DNA from: Candidatus Hadarchaeum sp.
GTDB taxonomy: Archaea; Hadarchaeota; Hadarchaeia; Hadarchaeales; Hadarchaeaceae
Assembly: GCA_020725055.1 (NCBI GenBank)
Contig: DYFS01000005.1
Span: 1 to 42,424, forward strand
Length of the DNA: 42,424 nt
Reading direction: 5' to 3'
Positions 35,447 through 41,629 of the stretch are shown piece by piece (positions within the stretch are counted from its first letter, which is position 1; each line of letters begins with the position of its first letter). Position numbers and translations under genes: made by a program. The notes under the pieces were generated by a model, which had not been told where the DNA came from, made no database searches, and worked only from the letters and a program-made list of their open reading frames with translations.

Positions 35447-38400
35447 TTGGGCAAAATCACCCGGATCACTGGCCCCGTCGTCATCGCTGATGGTATGAAA
35501 GGTTCAGAGATGTACGAGCTCGTGCGCGTGGGCGAACAGGGCCTCATCGGGGAGATCATCGGGCTGATTGGTGATCGCGCGACAATCCAAGTTTATGAGG
35601 AAACGGCCGGCATCAAGCCAGGTGAGAGGGTTGAGGGTACGGGAAAACCCCTCTCCGTCGAGCTCGGGCCAGGGTTGATCGGCGCGATATATGACGGCAC
35701 TCAAAGGCCACTCAACATAATCAAACAAAAAACCGGAGATTTGATAACGCGCGGCGTCTTCGCGCACCCCCTGCCACGCGACAAAAAATGGGAGTTTGTG
35801 CCGAGGGTGAAAAAAGGTGATGAGGTGGGGGAGGGTGATGTACTCGGAACTGTCAAAGAGAGCAAACTTGTAGAACACCGCATCTTGGTTCCGCTAGGAG
35901 TCAAGGGCAAAATCGTCAACATCGCCGAAGGAGCTCATAGGGTTGAAGAAGTCGTAGCGACCGTAGAAACCGCTCACGGCAAAAAGGAAGTTCTGATGAT
36001 GCAGGTCTGGCCCGTTAGGCGGGCGAGACCATTCAAAGAAAAACTCGACCCGTGCGAGCCCCTGATAACTGGGCAGCGTGTTGCAGACACATTTTTTCCC
36101 ATAGCCAAAGGCGGGACTGTAGCGATACCTGGAGGATTTGGGACTGGTAAGTGTGTGAAAGGAAACACGCCCGTCTTGCTTGCCGATGGCGAGCTTCTAA
36201 CTCTTGAAGAGATATACGAAAAATCGAAGAACAACAATGGACGTCGTATAAACAACGGTTCTGAAGAATGCGTCGTTTTAGATGAGCCCATAAAGATTCA
36301 TACCTTCAACGGTAGTGACATAGTTGAAGCTGACGCAACGCTTACTTACAGGGGCTACAGCGATCAGATATGTAGAATAACTACTAGGGCAGGTAGAACC
36401 ATTGAAATCACCCCTATTCACAACTTGCTCGTTTTTCGACCGAATTGCACCATCGAGGCGATCCCTGCAAAGAATTTGAAAGAGGGGGATTACCTCGTCG
36501 TGCCGCGAAAGATAGAGAGGCACACTTCAAACCAAATCATCAATTATTCAAAGCTTGTCGAGAGTTGGGGCAACGATCTGAGAACTGCTGATAAAAAACT
36601 GATCTATGAGACGGTTCGCGCGGTTAAAAAAATGGCTGAAAAGGAAGGGTCCTTTAAAAAGTTGTTGGATAAACTTGGGATAAGCTACGATGTCTTAATG
36701 AATTATGTGTTAAGGCGGGCGAGACCTCCGCTATCGTTCGTTGCTAAGGTACTCAAAAAAAGAATCTGCCCACGAAAGGTTGGAATCCGCAGAAGCGATA
36801 ACGAACTATTATTGCCTCAAAAAGTGACCCCTGAGTTAGCGGAATTTCTGGGAATGTTGCTCTCCGATGGAACCATAAAACCTGGATTTGTGCGCTACTA
36901 CAGCGTTGAGCCAGCGTTGCTCAATAGGTTTTCCGAGCTAGGCCAAACAATCTTTGGAGCAAAATGTCGAAGAACCGTTGAGAAAGGGGTTGGATGTATT
37001 GTAATTAGCAACAGGGTTCTTGTACGAGTGCTTCATGAAATATTTGAAATACCGCTACGCAAGAAATCCCGCAACGCTAAAGTTCCGAGGCTGATTCTGA
37101 AATCGGATGGCACCGCCATTGCATCCTTCATCAAAGGGTACTTCCTAGGGGATGGGTACGTCGGTAGGCGGGAAGTTGGGCTATACACGACGAGCAAAGT
37201 GATGGCATCGCACTTGTCTTATCTTTTATCCATCCTTGGCATTCCACATGCTGTTAAAACAAAACCCCGGTTTGGCGCCTACATTATTGTCATCTCAAAC
37301 TGCGAGCGGGCCGCCACATTCGCAAAACTCGTAAAAGTTCCGGATAAGTTCGCTATTGGCAGAAAACTCGCAGAGAGATTGCGGAAAAATCCAAGAGGGT
37401 ATACTGCGCTTGATGTAGTACCTGTATCCGCTGAGTTCCTTCAGTCAACCATCAAAAGCGGCAGCGTTGAGGCCAGCCTCTTTAGACGTTATGGGGTGAA
37501 AATCCGAAACTACCTCAAACTACGGGAGAAACCCTCCATCAGCACCTTTAAGAAAATAGCAAGTGGGCTGAGGGAAAATGCCCCATCTACAATCGAAGTC
37601 AAAAGAATTTTAGAAATCAGCGAAATGCTTGACTCAATCGGCTTTGATGCTGTGGAAAAGATCGAAAGTGAGAATTCACCAACTCCTGTTTATGACATCA
37701 CGGTGCCTTCGACCCATAACTTTGTGGGCGGAACTATGCCCACGCTCCTGCACAACACCGTTTTCCTCCACCAAGTTGCAAAGTGGGCCGACGCCGACAT
37801 CATCACTTACGTGGGGTGCGGTGAGCGCGGTAACGAGATGTGCGACGTGCTCGTCCACTTTCCACAACTCAAAGATCCGCGAACCGGCGAATCGCTTATG
37901 GAGCGAACGGTGCTCATAGCCAATACCTCAAACATGCCCGTCGCAGCGAGAGAAGCCAGCGTGTACACCGGCATCACGATAGCCGAGTACTTCCGCGACA
38001 TGGGCTACAACGTTGCCCTCATGGCTGATTCAACGTCGCGCTGGGCTGAGGCAATGCGCGAGATCTCCGGGCGGCTCGAGGAGATGCCCGGTGAGGAGGG
38101 TTTCCCAGCCTACTTGGCGTCAAGGCTCGCTGAGTTCTACGAGCGGGCGGGACGCGTCCGCACCTTGAGCAACGATGAGCGGTATGGCTCGGTCACGGTG
38201 CTCGGGGCCGTTTCTCCCCCGGGAGGCGACCTCTCGGAGCCGGTGTGCCAAAACACCCTACGCATCGTCAAGGTCTTCTGGGCCCTCGACACGGCGCTCG
38301 CCGATCGCCGCCACTTCCCCGCCATCCACTGGCTCACGAGCTACTCGCTCTACGTTGACCTGCTCAAGGGCTGGTGGGTACAGAAGCTCGGCGAGGACTG

Positions 38401-38821
38401 GAAAGCGCTGCGCGACAACGCCGTGGCGATGCTTCAAAAAGAGGCCGAGCTCGAAGAGATCGTGCGGCTCGTCGGCCCAGATGCTCTGCCTGAACGCGAG
38501 CGCGCGGTTTTGGAGTCCGCCCGCATGATGCGCGAGGACTTCCTTCAGCAGTTCGCCTTCCACGAGGTCGACACCTACTGCCCTACTGAGAAGCAGCTGG
38601 GGATGTTCAAGCTCCTGCTCAAGTTCTACGAAAATGCGGTTGAGGCTGCGAAGCGCGGCATCGCAGTTGAGGAGATCAAGAAGCTCCCCGTAAAAGAGGA
38701 AATCGCGGGGATGAAGCGGCTGCCCCCCGAAAGGTTTGAGAGGGAGTACAAATCGATGGAGGGGCGTCTCGAAAAGCAGTTCACTGAACTCTTTCAAACG
38801 AAAAAAGCGCTGGGTGGATGA
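35447..38821 (+). CDS. atpA: A-type ATP synthase catalytic subunit A, interrupted by an intein
   Basis: Catalytic subunit; hydrolyses or makes ATP. N-extein is residues 1-235, from [16 protein letters not shown] to the P-loop GGFGTGK. A 535-aa intein (236-770) splits the P-loop, and the C-extein resumes [20 protein letters not shown]. Splicing restores GGFGTGKTVFLHQ and gives 589 aa, the usual size. Other catalytic parts are [35 protein letters not shown] and the stalk-facing [11 protein letters not shown]. Start is TTG at 35447; no ATG or GTG is better placed. Its end overlaps atpB by 4 nt. Without splicing the enzyme cannot bind nucleotide. Confidence 0.96.
36152..37756 (+). other. AtpA intein (535 aa) with LAGLIDADG endonuclease domain
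   Basis: Starts with Cys1 ([20 protein letters not shown], block A). Block B is [22 protein letters not shown] motifs are [14 protein letters not shown] and [16 protein letters not shown]. Block F is [15 protein letters not shown]; block G ends TLLHN with Thr as +1 residue. All splicing residues are canonical. The insertion point is between Lys and Thr of the Walker A motif, the site used by other archaeal VMA inteins and different from the yeast VMA1 site ([11 protein letters not shown]). AT-richer than the exteins. Confidence 0.94.
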
Positions 38822-40215
38822 AAATGAGCGAGGCCGTGAAGAGCAGGGAATATCTGACCGTCGGCAGGGTCTCAGGCCCCCTGATGATAGTTGAGGGGGT
38901 CAGTGGTGTCGCCTACGGTGAGGTCGTTGAGGTCACCACGCCAAGCGGCGAGACCAAGCGCGGCCAGGTGCTCGATGCTTATGAAGATCGTGCCGTGGTC
39001 CAGGTCTACGAGGGAACGGGTGGCATCGACACCCTCCAAACCCGGGTCAGGTTCACGGGCGAGACGGTGAAATTCGGTGTTGGGCTTGAGCTTCTGGGCA
39101 GGGTCTTCAGCGGGAAAGGCGTATCGATTGACGGCGGCCCCAAGCCGATATGTGAGGAAGAGCTCGATGTTCACGGTGCGCCGATAAACCCGTCCGCGCG
39201 TGAGTACCCGAGCGAATTCATTCAAACCGGGATTTCAGCAATCGATGGGATGAACACCCTCGTGCGCGGGCAAAAACTCCCCATCTTTTCAGGGGCTGGC
39301 CTCCCCCACAACGAGCTCGCCGCCCAGATAGCGAGGCAGGCGAAGGTTCTCGGGGAGGAAGAGAGATTTGCAGTTGTCTTCTGCGCGATGGGGATAACCC
39401 ACGAGGAGGCCGCTTTCTTCATCAAAGATTTTGAGCGGACGGGCGCACTCGAGCGGGCGTCGGTATTCCTCAACCTAGCGAACGACCCTGCCATCGAACG
39501 CATTCTAACGCCGAGGCTTGCTTTAACAACCGCCGAGTACCTGGCTTTTACTCAAGGTATGCATGTGCTCGTGATTCTGACCGATATGACAAACTATGCC
39601 GAAGCCCTTCGCGAGATTTCCGCCGCGCGCAGTGAGGTACCTGGACGCCGGGGCTACCCGGGCTACATGTACACCGATCTCGCGACTGTGTACGAGCGGG
39701 CGGGGAGGATACTGGGCAAGCGGGGCTCGATTACACAGATGCCGATCCTGACCATGCCTGGGGACGACATCACCCACCCAATCCCGGACCTCACGGGTTA
39801 CATCACGGAAGGACAGCTCTGCATGGACCGCGAACTCCACCGCAAGGGCATCTATCCCCCGCTCAACGTCCTGCCCTCGCTGTCTAGGCTGATGAAGGAC
39901 GGCATAGGGGAGGGGCACACCCGCGAGGACCACAGCGACGTCTCCAACCAGCTCTACGCCTGCTACGCCGAGGGGCGCGACCTCCGGGCCCTCGTCGCAG
40001 TCGTTGGTGAGGAGGCATTGACCGAGCGCGACCGCCGCTACCTAGACTTCGCGGACCGGTTTGAGCGGGAGTTTGTCAATCAAGGCAAGGCCGAGGATCG
40101 CTCGATCGAGGCGACGCTCGACCTGGGCTGGGAGCTCCTCCGCGCGCTGCCTGAGGGTGAGCTCAAGCGCGTTGACCCGCGGTTTGCCGCAAAGTACCTG
40201 CGACCGCGTGAGTGA
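38818..40215 (+). CDS. atpB: A-type ATP synthase subunit B
   Basis: Non-catalytic, nucleotide-binding subunit of the A3B3 head, 465 aa. Signature regions: [20 protein letters not shown] at the N-terminus, [20 protein letters not shown] in place of a true P-loop, [20 protein letters not shown], and the proline-rich [21 protein letters not shown] at 38818 overlaps the atpA stop by 4 nt, so A and B are made at matched levels. No atpD follows; that gene is at 28.2-28.9 kb on the other strand. Confidence 0.95.
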
Positions 40216-40246
40216 CTTGGTTAAAAAAGCCCGCATGCAAAAGCTA

Positions 40247-40307
40247 GCGCGCTCGGGGACTCAAAATCCTCATCACCAATCAGCGGGTCAGTCTCGTCAT
40301 CGCGCGC
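40247..40307 (-). ncRNA. Box C/D sRNA (methylation guide)
   Basis: On the minus strand the parts are in canonical order: stem GCGCGC (40302-40307), box C AUGACGA (40294-40300), 10-nt guide GACUGACCCG, box D' CUGA (40280-40283), 4-nt spacer, box C' UGAUGA (40270-40275), 13-nt guide GGAUUUUGAGUCC, box D CCGA (40253-40256), stem GCGCGC (40247-40252). Box C has U5 to C and box D has U2 to C, so the usual U-U pair of the kink-turn becomes C-C. The D guide complements GGACUCAAAAUCC, the anticodon arm expected of tRNA-Leu(CAA). The fifth base upstream of box D pairs with U33, one away from C34. TATA-like sequence sits 25 nt upstream. Confidence 0.75.
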
Positions 40308-40326: not shown

Positions 40327-40338
40327 GTTTTAAAAGTT
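40327..40338 (-). promoter_or_regulatory. TATA box of the box C/D sRNA
   Basis: Minus-strand ACTTTTAAAACC is centred about 25 nt upstream of the first base of the sRNA terminal stem, exactly where an archaeal promoter should be. T tracts CTTTTG (40238-40243) and GCTTTTTTAA (40220-40229) downstream could end the transcript. Confidence 0.6.
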
Positions 40339-40519: not shown

Positions 40520-41629
40520 CTACTCTGTGGCGAGCGCGGATATCTTCTCAGCCTTCGCGTGTGCCCGCTTGCGCTCGGCTCGATGGTCGCTCAGGAACCC
40601 CAGCATGAGCTCGATCGCGCGCTTTTTGCAGTCACCGCATATCAGCCCGCCGGTCTTGCAGGCCTCACGCAGCTCGAACAGCTTTTTGTCGTCGGGCATC
40701 AGGTGGTACACGTAGAGCCCGAACACAACACACTTGTCCGGGTCGCCTCCGAGCTTCCGCTGCTCGCGCGCAGTCGGCTGCCCACCGGTGAGCGCATCCT
40801 TAATCTTGCTTGTCGCCCCCCTGGCCGAGTCTGTCAAGAACACCGCTGTCTCGGGCCTGCTGCTCGACATCTTCTCCCCACTCAGGCCTGGTAAGAGGCG
40901 ATGGTAGGTCGAGGATGGCAAGATGAACTTGAACTCGTCGCTGAACCTTCCCGCGACGTCGCGCGCGAGCCTGAGGTGCGGGTCTTGGTCCACACCGACT
41001 GGAACAACCGTCGGGCGGGGTCCACCGAACTCCTCGAGCTGGGGGTGTAGGATGTCCGCAACGTCGACCATGGGGTAGAAGATGTGGGCGATGTTTGACT
41101 CGCCCTTGAAGCCGTAAATCGCGCGCATCTCGCTGAAGTTCACCTTCCGCGCCAAGGCGAAGGCGAGGTGGCGCACCACATCGCTGCGGGACTGGAAGTA
41201 AACGCGGCACTTGCTCAAGTCGAGCCCAAGCGCAAGGAGGTTCGTGAGGTACTCGTCGGTGGCTATTTTTTTGGCCTCCCTGAACGACACGCCGCGCGCT
41301 GCATAAGCCTCGAGGTCGGCGATGCAGAGGAAGATATCCGCCCCCTGCCCCTGGTACCAGGTGAGCTGGTCGACGACGAGCTTGTGCCCGAGGTGCATCC
41401 GCCCACTCGGCATAAGCCCTGTCATCACCACGTACTTCTTGCCGTGGAGCATCGCGTCGAGAACCCTTCCGAAATCGCGGTGCCCGAATATCACCCGCCG
41501 CCGCATCAGGTGGTGGGAATCGGGGATGTCCGCCAGCATCGGCTCGAAGGGCTGGATGCCGAACTCCTCGAGCAGCTTGGTGTAGTCCTCCGGCATCTCG
41601 GCGCTCCAGGGGTCTATCCGAATCGGCAT
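40520..41629 (-). CDS. trpS: Tryptophanyl-tRNA synthetase
   Basis: Class I synthetase charging tRNA-Trp, 369 aa, archaeal/eukaryotic subtype. The HIGH-type motif is TGLMPSGRMHLGHK (about 70-83). KMSSS appears in SGEKMSSSRPETAVFL. PMVDVADILHPQL and VPVGVDQDPHLRLARD are conserved in the catalytic domain. CGDCKKRAIELMLGFLSDHR is the C-terminal signature of this subtype. ATG directly follows the endA stop (TAAATG), so the two genes are one operon. Confidence 0.95.
   Translation of the reverse strand: MPIRIDPWSAEMPEDYTKLLEEFGIQPFEPMLADIPDSHHLMRRRVIFGHRDFGRVLDAMLHGKKYVVMTGLMPSGRMHLGHKLVVDQLTWYQGQGADIFLCIADLEAYAARGVSFREAKKIATDEYLTNLLALGLDLSKCRVYFQSRSDVVRHLAFALARKVNFSEMRAIYGFKGESNIAHIFYPMVDVADILHPQLEEFGGPRPTVVPVGVDQDPHLRLARDVAGRFSDEFKFILPSSTYHRLLPGLSGEKMSSSRPETAVFLTDSARGATSKIKDALTGGQPTAREQRKLGGDPDKCVVFGLYVYHLMPDDKKLFELREACKTGGLICGDCKKRAIELMLGFLSDHRAERKRAHAKAEKISALATE

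Follow-up and report, generated by a model that had tools for sequence, protein, structure and literature searches.

Analysis of a 42,424-nt stretch of a Candidatus Hadarchaeum contig (the window) by sequence inspection and pattern search identified a gene for a 61-nt archaeal box C/D sRNA, with predicted ends, on the minus strand at positions 40307-40247. We propose, with a probability of about 0.8, that this sRNA guides 2'-O-methylation at the wobble position of tRNA-Leu(CAA) and, probably, of spliced tRNA-Leu(UAA) too. The sRNA would be transcribed independently and form an RNP with the proteins L7Ae, Nop5, and fibrillarin. Through base pairing of the D guide with the anticodon arms of tRNA-Leu(CAA) and, probably, spliced tRNA-Leu(UAA), this RNP would place the methyl group on nucleotide 34 (Cm34/Um34). 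The sequence-only reading had located the sRNA correctly but left its minus-strand orientation unstated. The features of the locus are as follows.

40247..40307, minus strand: box C/D sRNA, about 61 nt with predicted ends, recognized by its anatomy, Rfam similarity, and presence in 23 of 28 Hadarchaeota genomes
40302..40307, minus strand: 5' half of the terminal stem, GCGCGC, pairing with 40247-40252; the inner 4 bp are formed in 11 of 11 aligned sequences (alignment A2)
40294..40300, minus strand: box C, AUGACGA, with C replacing U at 3b
40284..40293, minus strand: D' guide, GACUGACCCG, 10 nt, without a convincing target in this genome
40280..40283, minus strand: box D', CUGA, an invariant column in alignment A2
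40270..40276, minus strand: box C', GUGAUGA, forming the canonical U.U with D'
40257..40269, minus strand: D guide, GGAUUUUGAGUCC, 13 nt, complementary to the tRNA-Leu(CAA) and tRNA-Leu(UAA) anticodon arms
40253..40256, minus strand: box D, CCGA, with C replacing U at 3n
40247..40252, minus strand: 3' half of the terminal stem, GCGCGC, pairing with 40302-40307
40328..40335, minus strand: TATA box, TTTTAAAA, about 28 nt upstream of box C
40223..40228, minus strand: T6 tract downstream of the sRNA, probable termination

Read 5' to 3', the RNA is GCGCGC G AUGACGA GACUGACCCG CUGA UUG GUGAUGA GGAUUUUGAGUCC CCGA GCGCGC, and the order of boxes C, D', C', and D, the guides of 10-13 nt, and a length within 50-70 nt are those of a C/D sRNA. 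The strict C-D'-C'-D pattern has this single match on both strands of the 42-kb window, and a looser C-D'-C' pattern has two matches in the genome (1.09-Mb assembly, 90% complete), the second of them without the full anatomy. A stretch near the contig end (42314-42354, plus strand) reads AUGACGA...CUGA...CCGA without a C' box and is probably a chance match. The genome also encodes fibrillarin, in agreement with the C/D sRNA reading. On one side the sRNA is flanked by atpB (plus strand, ending at 40215), and on the other by a gene for a class I aminoacyl-tRNA synthetase of the W/Y type (minus strand, ending at 40520), beyond which Pfam identified a tRNA-splicing endonuclease gene. Elsewhere in the window, the A-ATPase subunit A gene (35447-38821, plus strand) is interrupted in its P-loop region by an intein that bears a LAGLIDADG endonuclease domain (Pfam).

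In a local Rfam search the best match was RF00095 (snoPyro_CD), covering the whole model on the correct strand with 32.7 bits (E 2.5e-5 in a 271-nt stretch); this is below the RF00095 gathering score of 45, and no Rfam family matched at its gathering threshold. The Rfam sR-tMet model matches weakly, at 18.2 bits. Relatives were first found by examining the loci around atpB, and a covariance model built from 11 sequences detected orthologues in 23 of 28 Hadarchaeota genomes. In 22 of these the E-values range from 8e-15 to 6e-10; in the outgroup G001, the most distant genome, the value is 0.06, and the sRNA has all boxes and the guide and little terminal stem. In 21 of the 22 order-level genomes the sRNA and atpB share a contig and are no more than about 7 kb apart; in G014 the atpB contig has a fragment of the sRNA at its end, and the full copy is close to a contig end. 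The flanks of the sRNA are not conserved among relatives, and most orthologues have a TTTAA/TTAAA-like element at a distance similar to that of the TATA box here. A 67%-identical homologue of the neighboring synthetase in a Hadesarchaea MAG adjoins the same sRNA. UGA of box C and GA of box D, which form the tandem sheared G.A pairs, are kept in the tabulated members with the exception of G012 (box C AUGGGGA), and the aligned terminal stems contain too few changes for a covariation test. Altogether, the anatomy, the conservation, and the sub-threshold Rfam match confirm the earlier identification of a box C/D sRNA with its boxes, guides, terminal stem, TATA box, and T tract.

In two genomes of genus g5, G007 (L118 and L139) and G010 (L121 and L138), the sRNA is present twice, with about 1.8 kb between the copies and small differences in box C and the D' guide. 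The outgroup G001 has at least four other convincing C/D sRNAs (L162, L179, L180, and L181), three with U.U and one with G.U; in most other genomes, matches to the canonical C/D pattern are mostly coding or due to chance, with few candidates. Our literature searches found no description of a C/D sRNA in Hadarchaeota.

The tRNA-Leu(CAA) gene of this genome was identified by ARAGORN (L016). Its anticodon arm is CCAGACUCAAGAUCUGG, and the mature arm is the same in nearly all relatives found. The sequence-only reading had aimed the D guide at this arm and assumed 13-nt complementarity to GGACUCAAAAUCC; the arm does fit, but the actual target stretch reads AGACUCAAGAUCU and pairs at 12 of 13 positions, all consecutive (10 Watson-Crick and two G.U), the remaining position, adjacent to box D, being a C x A mismatch. 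The assumed target is nothing more than the guide in reverse complement, and was rejected as a tRNA sequence, since its only exact match in the whole genome is the sRNA itself; a near match at C31:34736 was rejected as well, being outside any tRNA. The second leucine tRNA, tRNA-Leu(UAA) (L030), is interrupted by an intron after position 37. Once spliced, its arm, GGACUUAAGAUCC, matches those of intron-less relatives and pairs with the D guide at 13 of 13 positions (11 Watson-Crick, with G.U at 34 and 37). With G.U pairs counted, both tRNAs thus form at least nine consecutive pairs spanning position 34 (12 for CAA and 13 for UAA); the published guide criterion calls for nine consecutive Watson-Crick pairs (PMC4644070), and under this stricter count the G.U pairs leave the duplexes short. 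When the guide was shuffled 1000 times, only 3 of the shuffled versions equalled its pairing with the tRNAs of this genome. The guides of G017 and G018 are perfect 12-nt complements of the tRNA-Leu(CAA) arm present across the phylum, and the guide core GAU?UUGAGU is invariant in nearly all members, save the base facing tRNA position 37, which varies freely among A, C, G, and U. Position 37 is usually m1G, in which case the facing guide base could not pair anyway. One sRNA may therefore serve both leucine tRNAs, as the complementarity to both arms suggests.

Elongator tRNA-Met(CAU) was also considered as a target of the D guide. Inspection of the spliced arm, GGACUCAUAAUCC, showed a single mismatch, at position 36, and this candidate was set aside because the guides of relatives are perfect for tRNA-Leu(CAA) and U36 makes a mid-guide mismatch. 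The intron of this tRNA (L017, G000:C6:6973-7089) contains GGUUGUGAGUG-CUGA-UUAAAGAG-AUGAUGU. Here a guide-like stretch is complementary to the anticodon loop of the same tRNA and places C34 at N+5 relative to CUGA; a box resembling C' follows. The element may represent one half of a C/D guide within the intron, or just a splicing helix; in haloarchaea the tRNA-Met guide has been reported always outside the intron (PMC2584109). In several Hadarchaeota (genus g5, G004, and G006) tRNA-Leu(CAA) has a short canonical intron at 37/38 (L096, L081, L083, L105, and L085), whereas in the genome studied here tRNA-Leu(CAA) lacks an intron and tRNA-Leu(UAA) has one instead.

The nucleotide selected by the D guide depends on its length. 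In members with 12-nt guides (G001, G002, G004, G016-G018, G021-G024, G026, and G027) C34 occupies exactly the fifth position upstream of box D, whereas in members with 13-nt guides (this genome, G003, G005, G019, and genus g5) GAGUCC precedes CCGA or CUGA and U33 is at N+5. The earlier count pointing to U33 and not C34 is thus borne out for this genome, and the suspicion of an unusual target base or box register most likely applies to the register, which is shifted by one extra C in some lineages, the others keeping C34 at N+5. The shifted register, together with a guide of 13 nt in place of the 12 nt found optimal in archaea (PMC8413462), speaks against the main reading. Comparison of the C runs (GAGTCCCGA in G016 versus GAGTCCCCGA in this genome; GAGUCCCGA in G016 versus GAGUCCCCGA) suggests that the extra C is probably the result of slippage. 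It had about three origins: on a quick AtpB tree, some branches of which are weakly supported, the 13-nt state requires three changes from a 12-nt root. Since the shift recurred without other changes in the guide, it appears to be tolerated, which seems to fit better with tolerance of an extra base than with retargeting and makes position 34 the likelier target in the 13-nt lineages.

If strict N+5 counting holds, the same sRNA and tRNAs in the 13-nt lineages, including this genome, would give a methyl group on U33. We consider this rather unlikely, even though GAGUCC followed by CCGA (CUGA in G015) fixes the register of box D with A opposite U33 at N+5 and the 13-nt form persists across several genera; its repeated, slippage-like origin with the rest of the guide unchanged argues against it, and we know of no U33 methylation in archaea. 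In a broader form, the RNP of the 13-nt Hadarchaeota would either methylate U33 or measure N+6 from box D, in parallel with a terminal kink-turn devoid of U.U. This possibility is a tentative one; if true, the recurrent slippage at box D would constitute a natural experiment on the N+5 rule.

It is also conceivable, although improbable, that the guide serves chiefly as a folding chaperone for the tRNA-Leu anticodon arm, or binds this arm in some other role, so that the exact position of methylation matters little. Such a role could account for the repeated 12/13 slippage without a compensating change and the free guide base facing position 37, as well as for the second guide of many members, which matches the D-loop of this tRNA over 8 nt. 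In about half of the tabulated copies the D' guide contains (C/U)UGGCU, which is complementary to a D-loop stretch of tRNA-Leu(CAA), AGCCAGG, and puts G15 at N+5; positions 1-3 of this guide, adjoining D', show no consistent pairing with the loop. However, all 12-nt members, including the most distant G001, hold C34 exactly at N+5, and position-34 methylation guides are established elsewhere. The genome studied here and G005 have another D' guide (CUGACCC) and other D-loops. The rRNA target previously suggested for the D' guide, CGGGUCAGUC, did not stand, as no exact match exists in 16S or 23S rRNA; the best match, AGGGUUAGUC in 23S rRNA, forms nine pairs, one of them G.U, and is not significant, such matches being common by chance. 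Orphan second guides are usual in tRNA-directed sRNAs (PMC7994747). Finally, chance assembly of the boxes in an intergenic stretch has a negligible probability: the motifs are short and have many loose matches within genes, but conservation in most Hadarchaeota genomes despite unconserved flanks refutes it, and the Rfam similarity is to C/D RNAs.

The terminal kink-turn departs from the consensus RUGAUGA/CUGA with U.U at 3b.3n. The two C residues noticed earlier in box C and box D are indeed present and face each other as C.C, but they are not a matched double change. Among 23 members the 3b.3n combination is C.C in six, G-C in five, A.C in five, G.U in four, and A-U, U-A, and A.G in one each, and U.U in none. 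The two sides vary independently (11 of 23 combinations pairable versus 10.1 expected, P 0.37), and the idea that C.C is compensated was rejected. Only in the terminal motif is 3b.3n relaxed, since both boxes of the internal C'/D' motif have retained U in these RNAs. Archaeal box C/D k-turns strongly favor U:U (PMC5689011), and C at 3b has been reported to permit ion-induced folding, unlike in typical box C/D k-turns (PMC4382518, PMC5689011). By the published folding rules, C:G at -1b:-1n in this sRNA favors ion-induced folding and G:C at 4b:4n impairs it. As a k-turn with G-C at 3b.3n still folds on L7Ae (PMC4382518), the function of the sRNA is not in doubt on this ground, and the U.U consensus is a strong tendency and not a requirement. 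The single-stranded sRNA folds no more stably than shuffled sequences (z -0.30), and no excess stability is expected since a k-turn RNA needs protein.

Guides for position 34 of tRNA-Leu(CAA) and tRNA-Leu(UAA) are already known from Pyrococcus, where C/D sRNAs target this position in these two tRNAs and in tRNA-Met and tRNA-Trp (PMC7994747). The Hadarchaeota RNAs resemble them in RNA class, target tRNAs, and, for 12-nt members, target nucleotide; they differ in that one RNA can pair with both tRNAs, U.U never occurs at 3b.3n, and some guides are of 13 nt. The RF00095 family is similar in box order, spacing, and length, whereas box C (AUGACGA), box D (CCGA), and the guides are different. The Haloferax sR-tMet and tRNA-Trp intron guides are likewise C/D guides acting on the tRNA wobble position; they serve different tRNAs, and the Hadarchaeota gene is free-standing. 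In bacteria, TrmL methylates position 34 (Um34/Cm34) of tRNA-Leu(CAA) and tRNA-Leu(UAA), the same two isoacceptors and the same modification as proposed here. The analogy is functional, TrmL being a protein enzyme that is not RNA-guided and has no homology to the sRNA.

Thus, an ordinary kind of RNA is found in a new place, and it is mildly unusual in its relaxed terminal 3b.3n position and in the recurrent one-base slippage of its guide. The Hadarchaeota sRNA would add a deeply branching phylum to the archaea in which leucine tRNAs undergo RNA-guided methylation at the wobble position. The repeated 12/13-nt slippage could test the strictness of the N+5 rule, and the free variation at 3b.3n is relevant to the extent to which L7Ae depends on the box C/D consensus.
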